Positions 4,461 through 24,529 of a DNA stretch of 33,103 bases are shown here, piece after piece; position 1 is the first letter of the stretch; each line of letters begins with the position of its first letter. Position numbers and translations under genes: made by a program. Under the pieces are notes generated by a model. The model made no database searches. It was not told where the DNA came from and saw only the letters and a program-made list of their open reading frames with translations. This DNA comes from Acholeplasmataceae bacterium (GTDB taxonomy: Bacteria > Bacillota_I > Bacilli_A > ML615J-28 > CAG-698), in the NCBI GenBank assembly GCA_012838705.1, contig DUOT01000095.1, positions 1 through 33,103 of the forward strand. Reading direction: 5' to 3'.

Positions 4461-7400
4461 TTACTCGCTAACTTTCCATTTTGCATAATAAGTAATGCTT
4501 GTTACGCCAGAATCTTTACTGAATGATGGATACTCATTTATTGGTGTGTCTGATAAGTCTTCTTCTGTACACCATCCTTCAAAAATATATCCTTCTTTCA
4601 TTGGTTGTAACATTGGTCCTGGTAATACCATTTCAACTGTTACATCATCGGTTGCAGCATTTGCTGGTAAATGATAAATATCAATTGAAGTATCTCCAGT
4701 AACTGAAGGCGGTAACCATTCTATTACAAATAGTGAACCTATAACTAAGTTGTTGTACATGCTCTTAATGGTATCTTTATATGGAGATGTACAGTTATCA
4801 TGATAACTTAAATATAGGTCTGCTTCAGCGTTAGTATAACCAACACCTTTACCTATTGCTTCATAAACTCCTGGAACATATGTTTCTTTTAAGGCAATAA
4901 CATACCAATATAATCCACCACGGCCAGTTCCAACAGTTATTGTTGCACCGGCACCATCACCTGCAGTACTATATCTAGTTGCCTCTATATAAACATCTGA
5001 GTCTCTTAATTTATACATATCTGTAGAATTTAACACACCACCATTTAGTTTATATGTCACTTCTACTCGAGAATAATTATCTACTACTAATTTTGCATAG
5101 AATTCTCTATCACCTCGAGAACCTTTAGCTAATGTAGTTATTGGATCGCCTGTAAAGTTAGGATTATCATACCATCCAAGGAAAATATAACCTTCTTTTT
5201 CAAATACTGGAAGATTATATGCCTCTTCATGTGTATATTTATCTGCTAGATCAACCAGTTCTTCTTCACCATCATAGAATTTAACTGAATATTCGATTGC
5301 TTTATATACTGGTGTAAACTTCTTATGTTCATTAAATAATACTTGATCTCCCGCTTTATATTGATTTGTACCATCAGTGAAATAATCGAATACATAATCT
5401 GCTTTTTCAGGACCTGCAGGTATTGTTACCTTTTCACCTTCATAAACAAGATCATAATGTTTATAACTAACCTTAATTTTATTATTATAATTTGGTAAGT
5501 TATTATAAATAGTTACACCTGTGAAATTGATAGCAGTATATCCACCAACAACATGACTCCTATTAAAGAAGTTTGCAATGGAATAACATAAATGATCTGC
5601 ATTATATAAAGCATAAGTACCATTTGTACCATCACCTTGGATAGCGACGATTTGTCTTGTTGGATGTGTTGTTCCATCAACTGATTTAATAAAATCTAAT
5701 AACCATCCCCATTTGTCTTTATATACAGGATCATTAAAGAACTTGTAAATATTACTTCCTGCAAGATTTGTAGAACTTGTGACACCAATCTTAGCACTAT
5801 TAAAGAATTCAACTGCTTTTAACTCAGTCCAAGTTGTACCAAATTTTTTGTTCCAGTCTTTAATAAAATGGTCAACCATGCGTTTTGGATCATTTTCAAA
5901 TTCATGTAGAACTTCAAAATTTCCAAAAGAGTCAACTGCATAATATACTAATTCTTTTTCTTCATGTTCAATTTCTACTATTCTCCATATTTCTTCATCA
6001 CCAAATAATATTACTTTATAAATACCATCTAGATTACTTATTGGGAACCATACTCCATAATGATCTTCTTCAAGAATAAAGGCATCATATACATTACCAT
6101 CAGGAGTGATTACAAATCCTCTAAATGAATCATGATCATATGTATATAATTGATGCACAGAGTCTGTTTCATCAAAATATTTTGGTGAGCCATAAAGTGT
6201 TGCCTCCATTGTTTCGCCTTTTCTCCATTTTAAAGAAGCAACATATAAATTATGATCTTTATCAATTACTGCAAATTCATAATCTGTATCATCATTAAAT
6301 AGATTAACTAGTAATCGATTATCATCTTTTAATTCTATTTCTTCACCATTAATTAAAACGCCTTTAATATTATCTTTATGAAGGTTAAACTTCACATCAT
6401 TAAACATTAAATCATATACAATGTAATATTCATCGTCTTCAATAATTACATCAGAAGCTAATAAATCTGCTCTATTGATTTTATATTCAATAACAGCCAT
6501 ACTCAATTTTCCATCATGAAGAATTAAGAACATATGTTCTCCTTCTTGTTGGAAATTAGTTAGACTACTTAATCTAAACCAAATATTGATTTCATCAGTA
6601 TCATCTGGAACTGTAAACTCACTAATAGTTCCATCAGGCATGATTTGGAATACTTTATCCGTAGTAGTTACATCAATATCAACAACATATAATTGATAAG
6701 TCTCATCACTTTCTTCATCATATGTTGGATCGCCTGTCTTAACTGCATCTACATCTTCTGGATAAGTCCAATCTAATACTGCTTCAATAATATTATAATC
6801 TTTATCAAGGATTAAGAATTCATATTGTCTTGATTCATTAAGTACATTAAACCATAATGTTGAATCAGTATTTGCTACTAAGTCCTTACCATTGCATTTA
6901 ATTGCAACAATATCATCTTCATGTAGGCTAACTTTTTTACCATCTACAATAAGTTCAAATTCTTGGAATAAGTAAGGAGTTCCATCAATAGTATTAAAGC
7001 CTGCACGTCCTGTAGCTTTCCAAGTTCCTTCGTAAGTAGCATATTCAATAGTAGCTATGCTCCATACTCCACCATGAAGGATTAGGAATTTATGCTCGCC
7101 TACTTGTTGGAAATCTTCAAGTGTTCCCATTCTAAACCAAATGTTGAAAACTTCATCTACATCTTCTAGAACTGTGAGTTCAGTAATTGATCCATCTGGT
7201 TTGATTTGATATACTATATCTTCAGTTGTTACATCTATATCTACTACATATAATTGATATGTTTGTTTTCTATCTTCGTTGTATTGAGGACTTCCAGTTT
7301 TAACTGCTTCTACTTCTACTGGTTCAGTCCATTCCAATACTGCTTTATATTTTACATAATCTTTATCGATAATTTCGAATTCGTATTTTCCGGTTTCTTT

Positions 7401-9047
7401 TAATACATTAAACCATAACGTATCATCAGTGTTAGGTGTTAATTCTTTTCCATCTACTTTAATACTTACTACATCGTCTTTGTGTAAACTTAATTTTTTA
7501 TTTCCAACTAATAATTCAAATTCTTGGAATAAATATTGTATATCGTTAATTGTATTTGTACCTACTCTTCCGGTTGCGTTCCATTTTGCTTCCACAACAC
7601 CATAACTAATTCTTACTTCATACCATTTTTCATCTTTTAAAATTAAGAATCTATGAAGACCTTCTAGCTGTGGATTTGTAGGTGAACTTAATCTAAACCA
7701 TAAATTTAATTTATTGTCATCATCTTCAAGGATTGTAAGTTTGGTAATAGAACCATCAGGTTTAATTTGATACATTATATTATCAGGATCTGTATCAAGA
7801 TCTACTACATATAATTGATATGTTTCTTCTCTATCTTCGTTATATGCTGGATCTCCAGTTTCAACTGCTTCAAGTTCAGTTGGTTCTTTCCATTCTAATG
7901 TTGCTTTGTATAAAATATGATTTGCGCCTACTACTCTAAATTCATAATCACCTGGTTCCTTTAATACACTAAACCATAATGTGTGATCTGTATTTGGAGT
8001 TAATGCTTTGCCATTACTTGTAATGCTTATTACGTTATCTTTATGTAAACTAATTTTTTCTTCTTCTACAAATAATTCAAATTCTTGGAATAGATATTGT
8101 ACATCCTCAATAGTATGAGTACCTACTCTACCAGTCGTTTTAAATGATCCTTTTAATGACCAACATGCAAATAATTTTAGATTTTCTAATACTGGCATTT
8201 CAGGATCATAAGGTTTTGTGAATTTGTCATCTAAGAACCATCCTTCAAACTCATATCCTTCTCTTTCAAGAGGTGCTGGTTCATAGGCATCACCTTTCAT
8301 GATAAATTCAGGAACTTCATAATCTTCTGGTAACTTACCATCAAATAATTCAAATTCTACATCAAGCATTAATTTTCCTGATACTAGTTCAGTTAACCAT
8401 TCTTTTTCAGTGCCAGGATATCCAGGATAATGTTTCAAGTAAAGTTGATAAGTAGAAAGACCATCTACACCGTCTTTTCCATCCTTGCCATCAACTCCAT
8501 CTTTTCCTGGCTGACCATCTTTTCCATCAACGCCATCTTTTCCGTCATTGCCGTCTTTACCTACTACTGGACCTAATTTCTTTGTTGTGTCATCTGAATA
8601 GGTAACTACCAATTCTCCATCGTCGTTGATTTCCATGTTTTTGATACCAATACCATCTTTGCCGTCTTTACCGTCTTTGCCTGCTACTCCATCTTTACCG
8701 TCTTTTCCATCCTTGCCGACTACTAGTCCGCATTCAATTTCGGTATCATCTGTTAGAGTGATGATAAGCATGCCGTCGTTGTCAATTTCAATTGTTTTAA
8801 TGCCGACACCTTGTGAGCCTGGTGCACCAGTGTCACCCTTGTCTCCCTTATCGCCTTTTTCACCAATTACAACGCCAACATTAATAGTATTACCATCAGA
8901 TAGTTCAAAAACGAGTTCATTGTCTTCATTAATTACTGCGTCTTTAATACTGACAGCGCTTTCATCTCCACCGCCACCACAAGCGGCAAGTACTAATAAT
9001 AACAGAAGCCCAACAAACACTAACAAAAGTTTTGGTAATCTTCTCAT
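4461..9047 (-). CDS. Giant collagen-like, repeat-rich surface lipoprotein
   Basis: A 1528-residue predicted lipoprotein with signal MRRLPKLLLVFVGLLLLLVLAAC; lipobox LAAC puts the lipidated Cys at 23. Residues 32-200 alternate three beta-rich modules of about 30 aa (IKxxxIxxDxEL...D..T...GxVxG) with collagen-like Gly-X-Y runs (GKDGKDGKDG). A linker follows (LSTYQLYLKHYPGYPGTEKEWL), of the SAYELAxxxGFxGTExEWL type seen in collagen-like and phage-tail proteins. Then comes an InlB-like repeat ending FEGW..FACW (about 228-300). Four tandem repeats of about 187 aa run from about 302 to 1040, the fourth diverged. A unique segment with a long aromatic region follows (about 1040-1230), then further InlB-type repeats (FLGWYDNPNF, FEGWCTEEDL). 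The likely role is adhesion or surface display; the ligand is unknown. The start has no close ribosome binding site (see leader entry). Confidence 0.85.
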   Translation of the reverse strand: MRRLPKLLLVFVGLLLLLVLAACGGGGDESAVSIKDAVINEDNELVFELSDGNTINVGVVIGEKGDKGDKGDTGAPGSQGVGIKTIEIDNDGMLIITLTDDTEIECGLVVGKDGKDGKDGVAGKDGKDGKDGIGIKNMEINDDGELVVTYSDDTTKKLGPVVGKDGNDGKDGVDGKDGQPGKDGVDGKDGKDGVDGLSTYQLYLKHYPGYPGTEKEWLTELVSGKLMLDVEFELFDGKLPEDYEVPEFIMKGDAYEPAPLEREGYEFEGWFLDDKFTKPYDPEMPVLENLKLFACWSLKGSFKTTGRVGTHTIEDVQYLFQEFELFVEEEKISLHKDNVISITSNGKALTPNTDHTLWFSVLKEPGDYEFRVVGANHILYKATLEWKEPTELEAVETGDPAYNEDREETYQLYVVDLDTDPDNIMYQIKPDGSITKLTILEDDDNKLNLWFRLSSPTNPQLEGLHRFLILKDEKWYEVRISYGVVEAKWNATGRVGTNTINDIQYLFQEFELLVGNKKLSLHKDDVVSIKVDGKELTPNTDDTLWFNVLKETGKYEFEIIDKDYVKYKAVLEWTEPVEVEAVKTGSPQYNEDRKQTYQLYVVDIDVTTEDIVYQIKPDGSITELTVLEDVDEVFNIWFRMGTLEDFQQVGEHKFLILHGGVWSIATIEYATYEGTWKATGRAGFNTIDGTPYLFQEFELIVDGKKVSLHEDDIVAIKCNGKDLVANTDSTLWFNVLNESRQYEFLILDKDYNIIEAVLDWTYPEDVDAVKTGDPTYDEESDETYQLYVVDIDVTTTDKVFQIMPDGTISEFTVPDDTDEINIWFRLSSLTNFQQEGEHMFLILHDGKLSMAVIEYKINRADLLASDVIIEDDEYYIVYDLMFNDVKFNLHKDNIKGVLINGEEIELKDDNRLLVNLFNDDTDYEFAVIDKDHNLYVASLKWRKGETMEATLYGSPKYFDETDSVHQLYTYDHDSFRGFVITPDGNVYDAFILEEDHYGVWFPISNLDGIYKVILFGDEEIWRIVEIEHEEKELVYYAVDSFGNFEVLHEFENDPKRMVDHFIKDWNKKFGTTWTELKAVEFFNSAKIGVTSSTNLAGSNIYKFFNDPVYKDKWGWLLDFIKSVDGTTHPTRQIVAIQGDGTNGTYALYNADHLCYSIANFFNRSHVVGGYTAINFTGVTIYNNLPNYNNKIKVSYKHYDLVYEGEKVTIPAGPEKADYVFDYFTDGTNQYKAGDQVLFNEHKKFTPVYKAIEYSVKFYDGEEELVDLADKYTHEEAYNLPVFEKEGYIFLGWYDNPNFTGDPITTLAKGSRGDREFYAKLVVDNYSRVEVTYKLNGGVLNSTDMYKLRDSDVYIEATRYSTAGDGAGATITVGTGRGGLYWYVIALKETYVPGVYEAIGKGVGYTNAEADLYLSYHDNCTSPYKDTIKSMYNNLVIGSLFVIEWLPPSVTGDTSIDIYHLPANAATDDVTVEMVLPGPMLQPMKEGYIFEGWCTEEDLSDTPINEYPSFSKDSGVTSITYYAKWKVSE
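5910..8144 (-). repeat. Four tandem ~561-bp (187-aa) coding repeats
   Basis: Units start near 8144, 7583, 7022 and 6461 on the minus strand. The first three open with F/W-x-x-T-G-R-x-G-x-x-T-I and share YLFQEFEL, SLHxDxx, TLWFxVL, ETYQLYVVD, PDGxIxxxT and FLIL. The fourth keeps only the skeleton (NLHKDN, HQLYTYD, ITPDGNV). The 561-bp phase is exact for units 1-3; the unit 4 boundaries are approximate. Confidence 0.85.
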
Positions 9048-13637: not shown

Positions 13638-14210
13638 TTATGAAATAATCTTTAATATTTCCTTCATTACTTTAGTCTGAATATCTAAAGAAAGTGTTGG
13701 CATGTTTTTTATGTTGCTTTGTCCTTCATAATAAGGAAAATGGATAAATCCTATTTTAGTATCTAAACCGTATTTTTCAGCATAATATAAAGAAGCATAA
13801 AAACTTAAATTACAAATATATCCACCAGCACTTAATGATAGTTTAACTGGTAAATTTTTTGCTTCTAACCTTTCTACAATCTCCAAACTAGGAATAGTAG
13901 CAAAATATGCATCTTTACCTTCTTCTATTATTTTTTCACCAAGTTTAATAACTCCATTATTATCTTTAGTTTTTGAATATTGCATGTTTATTGCTACTTG
14001 CTCAATAGTTATACTATCTCTTCCACCTGCTTGCCCACACAATAATAGTATATCTGGTTTTTCTTCTAATAATAATTTTTCATATATTTCTTTTTGGTAA
14101 AGAACAGGTAATACTTTATAATTTAGCCCTAAACTTTTAATAACTTCTAAAGATGAATTTTCTTTTTGGTTATCAAAAGGTTCAAATGCTGTTATTAATA
14201 TTTTTTTCAT
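13638..14210 (-). CDS. pcp: Pyroglutamyl-peptidase I (cysteine peptidase family C15)
   Basis: A 190-aa enzyme that removes N-terminal pyroglutamate from peptides. The catalytic triad is recognisable: E70 in CGQAGGRDSITIEQVAIN, C133 in SLSAGGYICN and H157 in GFIHFPY. The N-terminal ILITAFEPFDNQKENSS is the family signature. I chose the ATG at 14210 (MKKILITAF) over the track start at 14225, because GTGGAG lies 8 nt upstream and MKKILIT is the usual beginning. The start lies 29 nt inside the end of the kinase gene, so the two are translationally coupled. It is slightly shorter than typical members (about 200-215 aa) but no motif is missing. Confidence 0.92.
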   Translation of the reverse strand: MKKILITAFEPFDNQKENSSLEVIKSLGLNYKVLPVLYQKEIYEKLLLEEKPDILLLCGQAGGRDSITIEQVAINMQYSKTKDNNGVIKLGEKIIEEGKDAYFATIPSLEIVERLEAKNLPVKLSLSAGGYICNLSFYASLYYAEKYGLDTKIGFIHFPYYEGQSNIKNMPTLSLDIQTKVMKEILKIIS

Positions 14211-15060
14211 AAGCTTTCTCCACATCTTCTAATTTCGGCAAAGCATTAATTACATAAGGTTTAATAACACTAAAAGCAGCAGCAACACTTGCAAATTTGC
14301 ATGCTTCAATTAAGGAAGCTCCTTCTGCAATCCTCACAGCCAGTGCAGCATTAAAAGTATCCCCAGCACCAGTAGTATCAACTGCTTTAACTTTATAAGG
14401 AGGTATTATAGTTTCTTTATTATCACTATATAGAATCGCTCCTTTATCTCCCATAGTTATTACGATGTTTTTAAAAATCTCTTTCGGGTATAAATCAAAA
14501 AGCATTTTTGCTTCACCTTCATTTGGAGTAAAAAGGTCTACACATTCTATAATTTCTTTATCTATCTTTTGAAAAGGTGCAGGATTTAATATAACAAATT
14601 TATTGTTTTCCTTAGCTATTTTAATAGCTTTTTTAATAATATTTATTGGAACTTCAAGTTGAAGAAGTAATACATCTGCCTGTTTAATTCTACTTGAAAA
14701 AATTTTCAAATCATCGAGATGTAATTTTGCTCCGTGACTAACTATGACTTTATTTTCACCTTCATCATCAGTAATAATTGTTGCTAGTGATGTATTATCA
14801 TTTTTCTGTACTAAAGTGAAATCAACATTTTCATTCATTAACACTTTCTTACATTCATTTCCATAATGGTCATCACCAATTGCAGATAAAAAATAACATT
14901 TAAGACCTAACCTACTACAAGCTACCGCTTGATTAAAACCTTTTCCACCTGGTTCAAAATATAAATCCTCCGCAACTTTCGTTTCTCCTTTTTCAGGAAA
15001 CGAGTTTACTTTCATAAAAATCGATCCACCACTTAAACCAATAATAGCTATTTTAGCCAT
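14182..15060 (-). CDS. PfkB-family carbohydrate kinase, ribokinase-like
   Basis: A 292-aa PfkB kinase. Motif 1 is FEPGGKGFNQAVACSRLG (GGKGFN at 38-43), which binds the sugar. Motif 2 is VDTTGAGDTFNAALAVRI with the anion hole GAGD and catalytic base D234. The GGKGxNQA form is that of ribokinases, but the sugar cannot be fixed from this. The start ATG follows AAAGGGG. It lies between the GCKR-like double-SIS gene and pcp on the same strand, with a terminator hairpin 15 nt upstream of the start. The kinase may act on the same sugar or sugar phosphate recognised by the SIS protein; that is inference from position. Confidence 0.88.
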   Translation of the reverse strand: MAKIAIIGLSGGSIFMKVNSFPEKGETKVAEDLYFEPGGKGFNQAVACSRLGLKCYFLSAIGDDHYGNECKKVLMNENVDFTLVQKNDNTSLATIITDDEGENKVIVSHGAKLHLDDLKIFSSRIKQADVLLLQLEVPINIIKKAIKIAKENNKFVILNPAPFQKIDKEIIECVDLFTPNEGEAKMLFDLYPKEIFKNIVITMGDKGAILYSDNKETIIPPYKVKAVDTTGAGDTFNAALAVRIAEGASLIEACKFASVAAAFSVIKPYVINALPKLEDVEKAYEKNINNSI

Positions 15061-15074
15061 AGAATACCCCTTTC

Positions 15075-15098
15075 AAAAAGGCTCCTATTTCTAGGAGC
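15075..15098 (-). terminator. Terminator between the GCKR-like gene and the kinase gene
   Basis: On the minus strand GCTCCTA pairs with TAGGAGC around GAAA and is followed by CTTTTTG. The kinase ribosome binding site follows immediately, and no promoter fits between. Kinase and pcp expression therefore probably depends on read-through. Confidence 0.8.
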
Positions 15099-15105
15099 TT
15101 CTCTA

Positions 15106-16890
15106 TTATTCATCTAATGATTTTGCAGGATCAAATCCTAATCTTCTTAATGTTTCCACTACATAAGACTCTTTATATACTTCATCTTTCTTACGAGTTA
15201 AGTAAGAATAGAAGAATTCTTCAAGTGCTTGTTCATATGGAATATTTGCAAGATTAGCAATAATTCTTGTACTACGGTCAATTAACTTTTTGTTTGTTGG
15301 TAATACTTGAATCATCCAATTACCCCAAATACGTCCCATTTTTGCCATAGTAGCTGTACTCAATAAGTTGAATGCAATTTTAACCATAACATGAGTCATT
15401 AAATCTGTAATAGTACGTGGTAACTTAACTGGGATATGAATTTCATTTTCATATAATTTCTTATCTGAAATATCTCCCATACGAATAACTACGCCACCAT
15501 CAAACTTCTTAACGTTTGTATTAAACCAGTTCATAACATCTTCATTTGCAGAACCATTAATATCAAGACATACTAGATGTGCAGGATGACGCATATAACG
15601 TGATGGATCATCTTCATAACCGATATTATATTTAAATACTTCCTCAGTTGAAATCTTTGGAGGGTTATTAATAATATCTTCTGCAGCACCTAAACGTTTA
15701 TAATCTTCCGCAGTCCAGTCTAAACCTTTAATTGGACGTCTGAAAACATGTTGCCACGCTACTTTATTAGGATATAGTGGATCTTTAATATATGCCCAAC
15801 TTACTGGACTTTCATGATCATCAAATTTTCTAAATGGTGGTAGTGTAAATGTAGGTTGACGTTCAGTTGTATCAGTAAGAATATCAAGTAGGTAGTCATG
15901 AGTACAATATGTAATTAAACCTTTTTGATTATATGTATTAGTTTCATACTCTACTGCTTTAGCTAAACCTTTCACTGCTTCACCAGTTGATAATTCTTTT
16001 ATTAAACGTTCAAACTCATAAGTATATTCTTCAAGCTCTAATGCACCTTGGCCAATTACTTTTAATTCATCTTCATTTAAGTTTTCTTTTAGCCATCTCC
16101 ATCCAGCAACTTCCATAGCTGCACCAACTGCTAATAATTGAACAGTTGCTGATTGCATTCTTGTAGAACCTGCTACTGCCATATTACCTACGAATAAATT
16201 AACTTTCGTAATGTTTTCGCGTTCAAATGATAGTCTTGCACGGTCAACATATTTACATAATATATCTTCTGGATTAGTATAGAAATAATATGTAGTACAT
16301 CCACGTTCTTCAGCTTCTAATACTGAACCATTGATACTTGCTGATAAACCACATTCCGCAAGTCCAACTAATACGTCACCAGGTCCAAGACCAGCTTCAC
16401 GAACTTGTTCACGACCAAAAGTTAAATAGTCTTCAAAGTTTTCTACTGAGTGAACTAATGCACGGTCGCCACCAGTTGTAAAGCTATTAGAAACTTCACT
16501 AATTTCCATAAATAATTGTTTCTTTTCTGGTAACTTTTGAATTAAAGATGTCCAGAAATATCTCCACATTGCATCAAGTGTAATAGCCATTCTTCCTGAA
16601 GCACCAACACTTGAGAATAATACTGTTTTACGATTATCAATCGCTTTCTTTACATCATCTACAAATTTTTGAAACTCTGGAGTTTTAAATGCTCTACGTA
16701 CAACTTCAGGAATTGATTCGTCAGCTGATAAAATCATTCTAACTCCAGCTTCTGTATCCTTAGCAATCGTAGAACTTAAAGTACGAGTTTTCGGATTTGG
16801 TTGTTCTGTTGGTATAACACCTAAATGGAATTGCTTTTCATTTTCAAAAAAGTTTTTTGCTGCCTTCTTGGCTGCTTCTCTGTAATCCAA
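15106..16890 (-). CDS. Double-SIS-domain protein, MurQ/glucokinase-regulatory-protein (GCKR)-like
   Basis: A 594-aa protein about twice the size of MurQ (about 300 aa) and near the size of animal GCKR. First SIS domain: FSSVGASGRMAITLDAMW, TTGGDRALVHSVENFEDYLTFG, LAECGLSASINGSVLEAEERG, VAGSTRMQSATVQLL. A second sugar-phosphate-binding region follows (about 330-480, GLITYCTHDYLLDIL...). The end is MurQ/GCKR-like: FNLLSTATMAKMGRIWGNWMIQVLPTNKKLIDRSTRII. The MurQ catalytic segment ASECPPT is replaced (LDAMWRYFW), although the VENFED acid is kept, so lactyl-ether cleavage is doubtful. A sugar-phosphate sensor or isomerase-type role is more likely. The start is TTG at 16890 after AGGAGG. It is first in a cluster with a PfkB kinase and pcp. 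The family call is good; the ligand is unknown. Confidence 0.8.
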   Translation of the reverse strand: MDYREAAKKAAKNFFENEKQFHLGVIPTEQPNPKTRTLSSTIAKDTEAGVRMILSADESIPEVVRRAFKTPEFQKFVDDVKKAIDNRKTVLFSSVGASGRMAITLDAMWRYFWTSLIQKLPEKKQLFMEISEVSNSFTTGGDRALVHSVENFEDYLTFGREQVREAGLGPGDVLVGLAECGLSASINGSVLEAEERGCTTYYFYTNPEDILCKYVDRARLSFERENITKVNLFVGNMAVAGSTRMQSATVQLLAVGAAMEVAGWRWLKENLNEDELKVIGQGALELEEYTYEFERLIKELSTGEAVKGLAKAVEYETNTYNQKGLITYCTHDYLLDILTDTTERQPTFTLPPFRKFDDHESPVSWAYIKDPLYPNKVAWQHVFRRPIKGLDWTAEDYKRLGAAEDIINNPPKISTEEVFKYNIGYEDDPSRYMRHPAHLVCLDINGSANEDVMNWFNTNVKKFDGGVVIRMGDISDKKLYENEIHIPVKLPRTITDLMTHVMVKIAFNLLSTATMAKMGRIWGNWMIQVLPTNKKLIDRSTRIIANLANIPYEQALEEFFYSYLTRKKDEVYKESYVVETLRRLGFDPAKSLDE

Positions 16891-16954
16891 TTTTATAAAC
16901 CTCCTAATTTATATATACTTAAACCTAGCTTTTTATAAGTCAAGTTACTTAATT

Positions 16955-17023: not shown

Positions 17024-17818
17024 TTAACTTACTCCCCTTTGTGGATCTTTAATAAAATCTAAACGTATTTGGAGTTCTTCATATTTCTTTTCAAGCTTTT
17101 CAATTTCTTCTTTTATTTCAGATACTACTTCTTTAACCATTTCTTCATCATCTAGAATAGACGTTTTATTATATGGGAATTCTTTTTCCATATCTCTTAA
17201 TCTTAATTTTTCTTCATATATTCTTCTTTGCAATGTAGTTTTTCGTTCAACTAATTTTTCATAATCATTTTCATCAAAACTTTCGATTTTGATATTTTCT
17301 AATTTACTTTCAATTTCTTTAAGCTTTTCAAAATCATCAATTTCATATGCTTCTTTTGCTTCTTCCCAAAGCTCTTTCGTGCTTTCATCAATATTAGGAT
17401 TTAAATCCGGATGAATTTTTCTTACAATCTTACGATATATATCATTAATTTGTTTTATTGTTTCATCATTTTCTTTTTGGTATTCCTCTGCAATTTCTAG
17501 TTGTGTAGATAAAAGTTCTAATTGCTTTTGAAACTCTTTTGTATCTTCATTAACAATAAAATCAATATCATCTTCACTAATTGCTTCCCCGCGCTCAAGT
17601 GCGATTTGATAAAGGGCAATTTTTCTTCTTATTTTTTCAATATTATAAAAGAGGCGATATCTTTTCAGTTCATAAACCCCAATTTTTAAAACATATTGAG
17701 CCTTAATCGCAATACCAGATTTATATAACTCACTACGCTCAATTAATAGATTATTTAAGCGGTTTGTGAAGGTTGTTATTTCATTCTTTATAGTTTTAAT
17801 TTTATCTTCGGTTTCCAT
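17024..17818 (-). CDS. Coiled-coil protein with a J-domain-like HPD motif
   Basis: A 264-aa acidic, strongly helical protein. The core IKQINDIYRKIVRKIHPDLNPNIDESTKELWEEAKEAYEIDDFEKLKEI (about 121-172) has the HPD signature (136-138) in J-domain context, including the following helix. Long charged coiled-coil stretches flank it (about 1-120 and 180-264), and the usual N-terminal J-domain position, Gly/Phe linker and zinc domain are absent. It could recruit DnaK to a specific client. It is the last gene of the addB-addA-nnr run; its ATG lies 2 nt after the nnr stop, and its ribosome binding site (CGGAGG) is encoded by the last two Arg codons of nnr. The client is unknown. Confidence 0.75.
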   Translation of the reverse strand: METEDKIKTIKNEITTFTNRLNNLLIERSELYKSGIAIKAQYVLKIGVYELKRYRLFYNIEKIRRKIALYQIALERGEAISEDDIDFIVNEDTKEFQKQLELLSTQLEIAEEYQKENDETIKQINDIYRKIVRKIHPDLNPNIDESTKELWEEAKEAYEIDDFEKLKEIESKLENIKIESFDENDYEKLVERKTTLQRRIYEEKLRLRDMEKEFPYNKTSILDDEEMVKEVVSEIKEEIEKLEKKYEELQIRLDFIKDPQRGVS

Positions 17819-19230: not shown

Positions 19231-22200
19231 TTACACCACCTGATGTTTTTCATCGATAAGTGAATATAAATAACCATAAACCTTCTTTCCAGTTTTCATT
19301 TCTAAATATTTCTTATAACCTTGTACTTGCGTAAAGTATGCTTCATCATCTATATTTTTAGTTTTATAATCTATTACAACTACATAATCATCATATTCTA
19401 GGATTAAATCAATAACCCCATGACTATCATTATATATAAACTCATGTTCTTTATATATTTTTGCATCCCTAATATTTTCTAATAACTTGCTATTTAAAAA
19501 GCTTTCTATTTTTCCATGAAGTTTTGGACCTAAGTTTAACTCATCGAGATTAGGATTTTTTAAATCTAATAATTCTAAAATGTAGTGCAGTTCTAACCCA
19601 AAGTCTATATTTTCCTTTTCTTCTTTAGTTAATACTTTATATGTTTTCTTAGAATAACTTTTTCTTGATTTTACTTTGTAATCGAGTTTCAACTCATTTA
19701 CATTAATTGGACTTGTTATATTAATGAAATCATTAAAGTTTACTTCTTTTATTTTTTGATAATCTTTAGTAAGCGAATAATCTTTTGGATCTAAAAGCTT
19801 TGAAAATTTATGTGTAGGAATTTGCGATAAAAAGTCTTTAAGACAATTTATTTTCCTTTTTTCTTTGTCATCTAAATCACATACTATTATCATTTTTTCT
19901 TTACATCTTGTTAGAGCAACATAAAATAATCTTAATCTTTCAGATAAGTCTTCCATTATTTGTGTTTCTTTATATAAGTCTTTTATTATTGTTTCTCCAA
20001 TTCCATTATCAAAATAAGGTAAAATTATTCCATATTGATTATCATATATAAATTTCTTTTTTAAATCTTCATAATTAAACCTAGCTGATAAACCAGCATA
20101 ATAACAAATACTAAATTCTAAACCTTTAGACTTATGAATATTCATTATTTTGACGCCTTCACTAGTAGACTTGTCTAGTGAATATTTTATTGGTAGATTA
20201 TTTTCAATCAGTTCATAAATAAAGTTTGTAAAGTCTACTACATGATAACCATTACTAGACAACATATCCGCAAGATTCATTAAATACTCGCATCTAACCA
20301 TTACGCCTTCAATAGATCCAATTGTTATAGCTTTTTCATAAATGTTAAATTTACAAATAATTTTTTCTAAAAACTCTCGATTACTTAATTCATCAAGAAT
20401 TATACTTAACTCAAAACATTTTTTATAAATATCTGAATTATTAAAATCTTTATTCACAAAATATTTTAAAATAATTTCGTCTTTTATGTTAAAAAGAAAA
20501 CTCCTTGCAATACTTGTAAATAAATATTTAAATTCTTGATCTAATTCACCGTGTTTTATTTTAATAACAAGTCTCATTATATTACTTAAAACAATAATAT
20601 CATATTCATTTGTTAAAACTTCATCTTCAATAATTGTTAGTGGTATTTGATAATATTCAAAAATCTTTTTAAAAAGAGGAAAATCTCTTCCGCGGTCAGC
20701 TAGAATCGTAAAGTCAGAAAATCTTGCTTTACGATACTTTCCTTTATCATATACTAGAAAAGAATCTACTTTTTCTTTAATATCACGTGCAATAATCAAG
20801 GCCTCTATTTCTGCTTTTGTATAACTTTTATCAAGCAAATTTATATAATTATATATTTCTAAATTATAGTCTTGATTTGGCTTATTTTCTTCATAATTTT
20901 TGTTTCCAAAAATCATTCTTCCTTCTTCTTTATAATCCACACCACCTAGGTCATCTTTCATTAAAATATCAAAAATATAATTAATATTTTCAATTACTTC
21001 TTTACGTGATCTAAAGTTTTCTGAAAGATCTATTTTTCCTCCACCTATTGATTTTTTATATTTTACATATTTATTTTTAAATATGTCAGGGTTGGCATTT
21101 CGGAATCGATAAATTGATTGCTTGATGTCACCAACCATATATACATTTTCATTAGCAATAAGCTTAATAAATTCTTCCTGAATATCAGATGTATCTTGAT
21201 ACTCATCTATCATAATTTCATTAAATTGATGTTTTAACTCATAACGAATATCATCATTATTACGAACAAGAAAATACGCCATTTTAGCTACATCTAAAAA
21301 TGTATAGTTATCGTTTTTCTCTTTAAACTTATGTAAGTATATATCTAACTTTTCAATAATATTAAATATTACTTTCGCATATCCTTTTGTTTTTAAAATT
21401 GTATTTTTAATTTCTTCAATATTTTCAAAACGAACTAAAGCTTTTATTTCATCTACTTTTTCAGTAAATACTTTTTTTTGACTTTTCAGTTCATCACTTG
21501 AGCCATTTGGAAGTCTTGGAATCGACAGAAAATTTACATTTTCTTTATACTCTTTATAATTTTCAGAGTTAAAATAAGACTCTAAATATGAAATGTCTTC
21601 TTCAAGTTCAGATGCAATGTTTTCATATACTTCATATAATTCATAGTATTTTGTTTTCAATAATAATAAATATTTTTCTATATGTTCGTCAATGGATTGA
21701 TTATTATAGTATAAATTAATGTTTATTAAATTTTCTTTATCTAAACGAAGGTTAAGTTTTTGGTAAATATCAATAATTGCACGTTTAATTATATCATCAT
21801 CTTTTCTGCAAAAGCTTGACATTAAATCCACAAAGTCTGGATCTTTTTCAATATATAACTCTTCAAATATATTGTCTATTTCTTTACTCATTTCAAGATA
21901 GATTATATTTTCATCAATTATAGATATATTCTTTTTTACATTCAATAAATAATGATACTTTCTAACAAGTGATAAGGCGAAACTATCAAAAGTACAAATA
22001 TATGCAGATTCAATTAAATTTAATTCCTCCACAAGCTCTTTTTTTGTTTCAATTTTTGCTCTTATCCTTTTTTTCATTTCTGCTGCAGCAGCATTTGTAA
22101 AGGTAAGGATTAGTAGATTTTTTATACTTATACCTTCATTTAACTTTCTTAAGACTCTTTCTGTAAGTACTGCAGTTTTACCGCTTCCAGCACCAGCACT

Positions 22201-22260
22201 AACGATTAGATTTCTACCTTCTTCATTTATCGCTCTTAATTGATTTTTAGTCCACTTCAT
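19231..22260 (-). CDS. addA: ATP-dependent helicase/nuclease subunit A
   Basis: The UvrD-type helicase-nuclease of the AddAB double-strand-break resection complex, 1009 aa from the ATG at 22260. The track start (22269) is a GTG overlapping the AGGTGA ribosome binding site. Helicase motifs: SAGAGSGKTAVLTERV, LTFTNAAAAEMKKRI, MIDEYQDTSDIQEEF, VGDIKQSIYRFRNANP, LSENFRSRKEVIENIN, VKIMNIHKSKGLEFSI, RLFYVALTRCKEKMIIV. The C-terminal RecB-like nuclease has LHYILELLDL, HGVIDLI, VVIDYKTKN and FTQVQGYKKY. It is about 200 residues shorter than the Bacillus protein, yet all motifs are present. It overlaps addB by 14 nt and should act with it at the chromosome. Confidence 0.94.
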   Translation of the reverse strand: MKWTKNQLRAINEEGRNLIVSAGAGSGKTAVLTERVLRKLNEGISIKNLLILTFTNAAAAEMKKRIRAKIETKKELVEELNLIESAYICTFDSFALSLVRKYHYLLNVKKNISIIDENIIYLEMSKEIDNIFEELYIEKDPDFVDLMSSFCRKDDDIIKRAIIDIYQKLNLRLDKENLININLYYNNQSIDEHIEKYLLLLKTKYYELYEVYENIASELEEDISYLESYFNSENYKEYKENVNFLSIPRLPNGSSDELKSQKKVFTEKVDEIKALVRFENIEEIKNTILKTKGYAKVIFNIIEKLDIYLHKFKEKNDNYTFLDVAKMAYFLVRNNDDIRYELKHQFNEIMIDEYQDTSDIQEEFIKLIANENVYMVGDIKQSIYRFRNANPDIFKNKYVKYKKSIGGGKIDLSENFRSRKEVIENINYIFDILMKDDLGGVDYKEEGRMIFGNKNYEENKPNQDYNLEIYNYINLLDKSYTKAEIEALIIARDIKEKVDSFLVYDKGKYRKARFSDFTILADRGRDFPLFKKIFEYYQIPLTIIEDEVLTNEYDIIVLSNIMRLVIKIKHGELDQEFKYLFTSIARSFLFNIKDEIILKYFVNKDFNNSDIYKKCFELSIILDELSNREFLEKIICKFNIYEKAITIGSIEGVMVRCEYLMNLADMLSSNGYHVVDFTNFIYELIENNLPIKYSLDKSTSEGVKIMNIHKSKGLEFSICYYAGLSARFNYEDLKKKFIYDNQYGIILPYFDNGIGETIIKDLYKETQIMEDLSERLRLFYVALTRCKEKMIIVCDLDDKEKRKINCLKDFLSQIPTHKFSKLLDPKDYSLTKDYQKIKEVNFNDFINITSPINVNELKLDYKVKSRKSYSKKTYKVLTKEEKENIDFGLELHYILELLDLKNPNLDELNLGPKLHGKIESFLNSKLLENIRDAKIYKEHEFIYNDSHGVIDLILEYDDYVVVIDYKTKNIDDEAYFTQVQGYKKYLEMKTGKKVYGYLYSLIDEKHQVV

Positions 22261-24529
22261 AATCATCACCTAAAAAGTGTTTTGTTTTTTTAAGATATAC
22301 TAAATCACTTTCATTTTTATAACATATATCGGAAAACTTACAATACTTACAGCTAACATTTTCTTTATCTATTACCTTAGGGTTTATTCTAAACTGACCT
22401 TTTGTTATATTTTCTATTGCTTCATATATTTTTTCTTTTGCAATAGTGCATACTTTATCAATTTCCTCTTTAGTTAACACTTTTGCATAACTATAATATC
22501 CGCCATCTTTTTTTTCTTTTAACCCCTTAACTATTTTACTTTTATCAGATAATGAAATAAACTCGCCTTCTGAATCTATACTACTTACACTATAACCTAC
22601 TAATTTTAAATTTTCGTGTTTTTGCTCTTCATATGATTTTTTGTTTTCTATATTGATCGCGTTTCCTAAAATAGGTTGTAAGTAAAAACCATAAACTTCA
22701 GCATCCATAAACTTATCAATATTTCTTACAAGAAATAAATAAACTGGAAGTTGTAAATTAAGTCCATCTAAAATATTATCTAGAGCAGGACTTGCGTTAC
22801 CCGTTTTATAATCAATTAATGCTAGATATACTTTACCCGCTATTTCTTTATATAAAATCTTATCAATAACACCTATAAAGGTTACATCATAACCATTTGC
22901 AATATTAACTATAACCTTTTCTTCATATAAAGCTTTATCATAATTAATATGTTGCATTTGCTTATTTATAGTATCAATTGCAAACTTAAGTTCACCTAGT
23001 AAATTATTAAGTAAAAAGTGTTCCTTAGGACTTAAAATAATGCTTCTATCTAGAAGATACTTGTTTATAACTTCATCAAAATCAAAGCTATCTAAAAATG
23101 CTTTAGAAAGTACATAGTGAAATACGTTACCAATTATAAGTGATAAAGTACTCTCCTTTTCTTCTAATTTGAGAATATGTGATAAGTAGTACTTAAACTC
23201 ACATTGATAATATTTATCAATAGCAGTATAAGAAAGGGTAAGTTTTTTATTAGTTCGTTTATCTAAATCATCTAAATCAATACCTGTAAACTTATGATCA
23301 TAAATTCCATAATTAATATTTTGATATGTACTATATAATGAAACTAAATCATTATGAAAAGCATTATATTTAATTAAATCATCAAGATATCTTGAAAGTT
23401 CTAACTTGTTATATAAATGTGAGTAATTATAATTTTTCTTTATATTTCTAATAACATCCATATTTAATTCTTGAATTAATATTGAAGGATAATATTTTTC
23501 AAATGGACTTTCAAGTTTGTAAGATATTATTAAATTATTAATATTTGATAAACTTGTAATTATACTTTCTTTAAAGATAATATTTAACTCTTTACTTGTC
23601 TCTAAATTAAGTTTTTCTTTTAACTTATCAGATAAATAATCTTCATCATAATAAACTTTTGGATATTTTCCCTCATTAAAACCAAGAAGGAAACAATAAT
23701 CATCACTATTAAATTCATTATTTTCTATTGATTCAATTGAAACAGCATTTTCATATTCAACTTCTTCTTTAAAGTGATGTTTCAAATCATATTCTATTAA
23801 TTCTTTTACTTCTTCTAAGTTTTCACACCAATAATATTCATTTAGGATTTCCGCAATCTTAGGATTTTCTGTTTTCCGTAGAGCTATATTTTGTAATGCT
23901 TTTTTTCCTTCATTAGTATAGTATAATGGAACTTTTTTCGGAATGTTTACAGGAATGTTATAAAACTTAAATATTTTATCTATTGTAAAGAAATATTCTT
24001 CACCACATATTAATTTAATATTATTAATATTTATTCCACCGGAAATTAGTTTTGCTATTTCACCCGCAACAAAGGCAACTTCATCTTCTAGCGTTATAAA
24101 TTCATATACTTTAAAGTTTTTTACTTTTCTTCTTTTTGTTTCAATATTGAAACTACTTAATTTACTTAAAACAAATTTAGGAATATATGAATAACCATAA
24201 AAAATAATGGTTTTATTATTTATATAATTAGAAAAATATTTATCTATATTAAGTAAAGGATATAATTCATCTTTAAGTTTTTTTAAAAATTTTAATTTGC
24301 TATCAAAATAAGTCTTTTCATCATCTAAATATTTCATGCTTTCTAAATATACTAATGCGACTTCATATTTAATATCAAGCTTTTTCATTAGATAATAAAC
24401 TGCCTTTTTTGAATATGAAAATGTAAACTTATTTATTAGTTCTTCTAAAGTCATATATTTTACATTTCGTAATTTTGTTGCTTTTTTTAATAACTTTTCT
24501 TTAATTAAATTTGGAACTACATAAATCAT
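22247..24529 (-). CDS. addB: ATP-dependent helicase/nuclease subunit B, reduced form
   Basis: The partner nuclease of AddA, 760 aa where Bacillus AddB has about 1160. The N-terminal part keeps an inactivated-helicase-like layout (FYGYSYIPKFVLSKL, EDEVAFVAGEIAKLI, LGFNEGKYP) but has no Walker A loop: the start MIYVVPNLIKEKLLKKATKL lacks a G-x-x-G-x-G-K-T stretch. The C-terminal PD-(D/E)XK domain is complete: LSYTAIDKYYQCEFKYYLSH, LIIGNVFHYVL, TFIGVIDKILY, LIDYKTGN and LNLQLPVYLF. A 4Fe-4S cluster is implied by Cys near 441 and C727, C730, C736 (SCKYCKFSDIC). It is the first gene of the operon, behind an extended -10 promoter. The identity rests on the C-terminus and the adjacent addA. Confidence 0.88.
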   Translation of the reverse strand: MIYVVPNLIKEKLLKKATKLRNVKYMTLEELINKFTFSYSKKAVYYLMKKLDIKYEVALVYLESMKYLDDEKTYFDSKLKFLKKLKDELYPLLNIDKYFSNYINNKTIIFYGYSYIPKFVLSKLSSFNIETKRRKVKNFKVYEFITLEDEVAFVAGEIAKLISGGININNIKLICGEEYFFTIDKIFKFYNIPVNIPKKVPLYYTNEGKKALQNIALRKTENPKIAEILNEYYWCENLEEVKELIEYDLKHHFKEEVEYENAVSIESIENNEFNSDDYCFLLGFNEGKYPKVYYDEDYLSDKLKEKLNLETSKELNIIFKESIITSLSNINNLIISYKLESPFEKYYPSILIQELNMDVIRNIKKNYNYSHLYNKLELSRYLDDLIKYNAFHNDLVSLYSTYQNINYGIYDHKFTGIDLDDLDKRTNKKLTLSYTAIDKYYQCEFKYYLSHILKLEEKESTLSLIIGNVFHYVLSKAFLDSFDFDEVINKYLLDRSIILSPKEHFLLNNLLGELKFAIDTINKQMQHINYDKALYEEKVIVNIANGYDVTFIGVIDKILYKEIAGKVYLALIDYKTGNASPALDNILDGLNLQLPVYLFLVRNIDKFMDAEVYGFYLQPILGNAINIENKKSYEEQKHENLKLVGYSVSSIDSEGEFISLSDKSKIVKGLKEKKDGGYYSYAKVLTKEEIDKVCTIAKEKIYEAIENITKGQFRINPKVIDKENVSCKYCKFSDICYKNESDLVYLKKTKHFLGDDYEVD

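Follow-up and report, generated by a model that had tools for sequence, protein, structure and literature searches.

The locus at positions 15106–16890 of the window (the whole 33,103-nt stretch of DNA that was analysed) raises the question of what a double-length relative of the etherase MurQ does beside a sugar kinase: does it catalyse a reaction of its own, or does it control its neighbour as GKRP (GCKR), the liver glucokinase regulator, controls its own? GKRP is a drug target, and published work has proposed that it derives from MurQ. The reading frame, which we call DS (double SIS), lies on the minus strand, as do all features of DS and of its partner kinase given below. It has 594 codons for 594 aa, begins with TTG, is preceded by a Shine-Dalgarno AGGAGG 9 nt before that codon (16900–16905), and contains every MurQ/GCKR-type motif that an earlier note on this DNA had quoted. 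The plus strand is closed by many stops across 15106–16890, and a promoter scan at the window locus performed no better than on shuffles. Besides the frame itself, the gene is defined by the predicted model and by 29 homologues at 59–75% identity, well past what chance would give; as these homologues have the same architecture, a fused or misassembled gene is ruled out as its origin.

To characterize the architecture, a structure was predicted with AlphaFold2, using an alignment that included spirochaete homologues and no templates (the training set contains GKRP). The model (pLDDT 90.5, pTM 0.91) consists of two complete SIS domains and a C-terminal helical lid. SIS1 (residues 71–255; 16126–16680) is delimited by model strands at 90–231 and by homology to MurQ and to GKRP SIS1, SIS2 (residues 286–495; 15406–16035) by model strands at 325–487, and the lid (residues 497–594; 15109–15402) by the model and by homology to the MurQ C terminus. 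Within SIS2, five strands run in SIS order (325–329, 366–369, 437–444, 465–472 and 483–487), and the extra domain that the earlier note had placed between the MurQ/GCKR-type blocks is thus a second SIS domain; the prediction gave two such domains, not one. The only segment of at least three residues with pLDDT below 50 is 346–350, which falls inside the DTTERQPTF motif described below, beside E343. When the model was searched with Foldseek, the best seven PDB matches were all full-length GKRP chains (617–661 alignment columns, TM 0.61–0.68, E 3e-17 to 1e-15), followed by the tandem SIS of GFAT near 1e-9 and by MurQ near 1e-8. GKRP was also the top structural match of an earlier model made without the spirochaete rows (pLDDT 79.6), which the present one supersedes. 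The double-SIS likeness to GKRP proposed from the sequence is therefore borne out by the predicted two SIS domains plus lid and by the best fold match.

The resemblance extends to details. In GKRP (PDB 4bba, 3w0l, 4ly9) the domains follow the same SIS1-SIS2-lid order over the full length of the fold and the phosphate loop is in SIS1, not SIS2; rat GKRP SIS1 carries GTSGRMA, GGDR and GLSA, while its SIS2 reads GWQTLGIIAI at the loop position. The GGDR and GLSA motifs are common to DS and GKRP SIS1 and are absent from MurQ. On the other hand, GKRP is only ~15% identical to DS, which is bacterial and is paired with a kinase of PfkB type where GKRP has a glucokinase of hexokinase type. Of the Pfam models, only GKRP_SIS_N passes on DS (34.5 bits, cut-off 27), the GKRP-like_C lid reaching 17.9 bits against 27.7 and GKRP_SIS_2 giving no match. 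Since the organism's ordinary MurQ scores higher on GKRP_SIS_N (69.6 bits), this label is unspecific and was ruled out as evidence for GKRP.

The homology to MurQ comes in two pieces, residues 22–254 and 504–548 (HMMER against PDB 4s12, E 4.2e-19), with ~245 residues inserted between them at the GSTRM..TVQ / K..NLLST junction. MurQ has a single SIS plus lid in ~300 aa and forms its sites across a homodimer, whereas DS has two unequal SIS domains in one chain, of which SIS1, together with the lid, is homologous to MurQ. DS misses the curated MurQ scores (99.9 bits vs 302 for TIGR00274; 131.1 vs 168 for PRK05441), and a separate canonical MurQ is encoded in the window's genome, which together rule out plain MurQ as its label. 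A plasmid collection searched for DS yielded only partial MurQ-like matches (coverage <=39%).

We then located the conserved motifs on the two domains. SIS1 carries the phosphate loop SSVGASGRM (residues 94–102, including S98; 16585–16611), whose GASGR is invariant in the Bacilli set and reads GATGR or GSTGR in spirochaetes, and GGDRALVHSVENFED (residues 140–154, including E150 and E153; 16429–16473), which is seen in the Bacilli alignment and is shared with GKRP as GGDR..ED. The MurQ ECPPT block is absent from SIS1: there, as the earlier note had it, LDAMWRYFW replaces ASECPPT, and W109 and R110 of this segment are invariant in 30 Bacilli DS sequences. A counterpart in SIS2 had been overlooked, however, namely DTTERQPTF (residues 340–348; 15847–15873), which the alignments match to MurQ DASECPPTF and which contains E343. 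The SIS2 segment LITYCTHDYLLDILTDTTERQPTF aligns gap-free with the corresponding segment of MurQ from the same genome, and hhalign and HMMER agree independently on the register of the QPTF/PPTF ends; SIS2 alone against MurQ is not significant, and SIS2 plus lid reaches 98% probability (hhalign) in a local alignment that spans the lid only. In the lid, NKKL (residues 533–536; 15283–15294) puts K535 at the MurQ N-x-K-L position. SIS1 thus has neither the Glu nor the Lys of catalytic type, their equivalents being E343 and K535, which are invariant in the 30 Bacilli sequences and kept in three spirochaete-group sequences; SIS2 has no phosphate loop. The earlier suggestion that DS might not be a muramic acid etherase is supported in that DS scores below the MurQ cut-offs in a genome with its own MurQ, but the etherase Glu and Lys are not lost.

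A similar partition is known from NagS, the GlcNAc-6-phosphate dehydratase of Streptomyces, a MurQ-related SIS enzyme that acts on amino-sugar phosphates and is not an etherase (PMC12680351). In its structure with GlcNAc-6P, one monomer provides Glu94 and the serines that bind the phosphate, and the other provides Arg64 and Asn228 (PMC12680351). NagS, reported from Streptomycetaceae only (PMC12680351), differs from DS in being a single-SIS homodimer and in having an Arg, Arg64, at what motif spacing suggests is the ECPPT Glu position. The division of residues between its monomers matches that in DS between S98, E150/E153 and S183/S185 in SIS1 and E343 and K535 in SIS2 and lid, suggesting that DS has kept one composite MurQ-type site, whereas both halves of the other have decayed. 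GKRP presumably shows the same split, with GTSGRMA in SIS1 and ECIHTF in SIS2.

From this pattern we infer that DS may be a MurQ-descended tandem-SIS enzyme with a single site, which would act in amino-sugar catabolism on the product of its partner kinase; we consider this reading about equally likely to be right or wrong. The two SIS domains would form an intramolecular pseudo-dimer in which SIS1 supplies the sugar-phosphate pocket (S98, S183/S185, E150/E153) and SIS2 with the lid supplies the acid/base side (E343, K535), one MurQ-type site being kept. The step catalysed would most likely be that of a lyase, an isomerase or an etherase-like enzyme, with an amino sugar or a sugar of muramyl type, phosphorylated at position 6, as its substrate, and in the window's order the adjacent PfkB kinase would make the substrate. 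A single-site enzyme would account for the retained residues and, as described below, for the catabolic gene neighbourhoods and for the genomes that keep DS but have no such kinase. As GKRP has the DS architecture and is not an enzyme, the conserved residues are no proof of catalysis.

The kinase (14182–15060; 292 aa) lies 45 nt downstream of DS on the same strand and belongs to the PfkB superfamily (PF00294, 190 bits; catalytic motif TTGAGD). That it is a partner is indicated by linkage and co-occurrence: the association predicted from the window recurs in related genomes, DS and a PfkB gene being immediate same-strand neighbours at 20 of 32 Bacilli loci (the kinase downstream at 7, including the window, and upstream at 13). 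Kinases of the DS-linked clade occur in 26 of 31 carriers, against 0 of 10 non-carriers (Fisher 2.7e-6, uncorrected for relatedness). Among the five carriers that showed no such kinase, DS sits at a contig end in three, and two (G007, G009) seem truly to be without it. No other neighbour of DS recurs as often; the remaining repeated ones (peptidase M18, MscS channel, ABC ATPase, nitrilase-type hydrolase, beta-lactamase family) were rejected, as each occurs at few related loci and they have no common function. The gap between the two genes in the window contains a terminator-like hairpin (GCTCCTAGAAATAGGAGC followed by CTTTTTG; 15081–15098), which is terminator-like on the plus strand too (15079–15100), so that co-transcription of DS and kinase in the window is only putative. 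Read-through or attenuation at this hairpin could set the DS/kinase ratio.

The closest PDB relatives of the partner kinase are ribokinases (RbsK), of which it keeps the GGKG, E143 and GAGD positions. It scores 262.3 bits against a ribokinase cut-off of 299.65 (TIGR02152), and the alignments show LSGGS (residues 9–13; 15022–15036) in place of ribokinase INAD with its Asn14 and Asp16; both findings rule out ribokinase as its name. Asn14 and Asp16 are replaced throughout the DS-linked clade, where LSG(E/Q/N/G)S or a sequence close to it stands at this position. Most of the other PfkB kinases that were checked, from the order, from DTU024 and from the spirochaete-group genomes, retain the Asp. 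Two genomes (G006, G026) hold a normal ribokinase-type paralogue in addition to the DS-linked kinase, showing that the two are distinct. In E. coli ribokinase Asn14 and Asp16 contact the ribose hydroxyls (PMC9604405), and in PsuK the equivalent Asp holds the 2'-OH and 3'-OH (PMC9247573). Judged by these replacements, a substrate changed from that of ribokinase is likely for the DS-linked kinase, and the missing Asp might mean that the sugar is altered or substituted at the 2-OH/3-OH.

Counting copies cut by a contig end as well as full-length ones, the DS family is carried by 31 of 43 genomes from the window's order, a small-genome Bacilli order, and full-length Bacilli members (29 homologues, 30 sequences) are 59–75% identical to the window's DS. 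A scan of 392 genomes drawn evenly across the phylum turned it up in no other order; in the phylum holding the Spirochaetaceae MAG of L035 it was found in 4 of 345 genomes, at 36–43% identity. DS occurs without a kinase of the DS-linked clade in G007, G009, DTU024 and the four spirochaete-group genomes. Two species of the window's order have shorter, 445-aa relatives that are 32% identical and lack the lid and E343 (G013, L057:7290-8627; G023, L058:7551-8885); their genomes have neither MurQ nor a DS-linked kinase, and the neighbourhood of the short form is conserved between them. In these short forms the active site may be gone and a role in structure or binding retained.

The main rival of the enzyme reading is that DS is a functional counterpart of GKRP in bacteria, a non-catalytic sugar-phosphate sensor that would bind the PfkB kinase and adjust it according to a phosphorylated metabolite. 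The GKRP fold match, the shared GGDR and GLSA motifs, the close kinase tie and a tree that weakly groups GKRP on the DS side (78/82) are all consistent with such a sensor. We nevertheless regard it as unlikely: the tree, which addressed whether GKRP stems from the DS family after duplication of the SIS domain, carries a long-branch warning, the folds of PfkB kinases and glucokinase are unrelated, and DS is kept in the kinase-less genomes just listed. Several of the kinase-less copies moreover lie inside amino-sugar or glycan catabolic runs, a setting that speaks for an enzyme more than for a regulator devoted to the kinase. In our view it is distinctly unlikely that DS, with its GKRP architecture, attaches to a PfkB kinase of its own with a new substrate specificity and controls it; such control of a kinase by a MurQ-derived protein would predate or parallel the animal invention.

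The catabolic contexts come from two phyla and tie DS to the breakdown of amino sugars and peptidoglycan sugars. In G034, a one-strand run comprises GlcD, EtfA, EtfB, a hydrolase, MurQ, AnmK, a NagZ-like protein, two poorly assigned genes, Nudix and, as its last members, the kinase and DS. The spirochaete-group genome G693 has MurQ, EtfB, EtfA, GlcD, a PBP4B-like protein, NamZ, a BadF-type N-acetylglucosamine kinase, RpiR and, in last place, DS, with one opposite-strand gene between (EtfAB was read from sequence and MurQ assigned by similarity). These two, one genome per phylum, are the clear MurNAc-recycling runs with DS. In the Spirochaetaceae MAG (L035), DS overlaps and follows a sugar ABC importer and GlcNAc 2-epimerase, and in G600 it is followed by genes for GH20C and GH42. 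Near another spirochaete-group DS (G584, L114:951-5707) are a PfkB kinase, a sulfoquinovose isomerase-like protein (240.7 bits vs a cut-off of 700) and an FGGY xylulokinase-like gene, a neighbourhood whose sequences suggest a ketose pathway.

The MurNAc runs in G034 and G693, the retained Glu and Lys of etherase type, and the co-occurrence with MurQ in the window's order (29 of 31 carriers vs 4 of 10 other genomes, p = 0.001) would also fit a second MurNAc-6-phosphate etherase, that is, a double-length MurQ with a single active site. Such an enzyme would be redundant beside the ordinary MurQ present in nearly all carriers and within both runs. The wide miss of the curated scores (99.9 vs 302 bits) and a phosphate loop reading GLSAS or GETSS, not ASGRTP, also argue against it, and we consider this explanation quite improbable. 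In its favour, Veiga-da-Cunha et al. (2009) reportedly described double-length bacterial GKRP-like proteins with etherase activity.

A kinase paired with an enzyme that processes its product also recalls the fructoselysine system. FrlD is of PfkB type and FrlB has a SIS fold, FrlB belonging to the GlmS-type SIS branch. In that system the kinase is followed by an enzyme that splits the phosphorylated product (PMC12735817), and with the altered sugar site of the DS-linked kinase in mind one might suppose that the kinase phosphorylates an amine-sugar conjugate and that DS, as a deglycase, splits it. Neither partner scores as Frl, however (the kinase reaches 62 bits where FrlD requires 247, and the NCBIfam models that DS matches are all MurQ models), and the gene contexts indicate amino sugars and peptidoglycan instead of Amadori products, making a deglycase very improbable. 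If DS does act as a single-site enzyme on a phosphorylated amino sugar, it may bring to light a new step in the breakdown of amino sugars or peptidoglycan sugars.

A literature search found no description of what the bacterial tandem-SIS form does. Tandem-SIS descendants of MurQ are already known from GKRP; as far as we checked, the bacterial DS family, the putative division of its active site between the two domains and its association with a PfkB clade whose sugar site is altered are new. DS may reveal what the ancestors of the liver glucokinase regulator did, and the question of enzyme or regulator is reduced to a direct test on two small proteins. For annotation, DS-type genes and their partner kinases should not be named MurQ and ribokinase.

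Finally, we looked at other genes of the window. On the same strand, a pyroglutamyl peptidase-like ORF (13638–14225) shares 44 nt with the 3' end of the kinase ORF and scores under the curated equivalog cut-offs. Upstream of DS, a 264-aa protein (17024–17818) contains an internal stretch that weakly resembles a DnaJ domain (25.2 bits, under the Pfam cut-off). An AddAB-like pair of 1012 and 760 aa (19231–24529) falls far under the Gram-positive AddA/AddB equivalog cut-offs, its members being short or divergent, and a 1528-aa protein (4461–9047) with a collagen-like stretch and Listeria-Bacteroides repeats is probably a surface protein.
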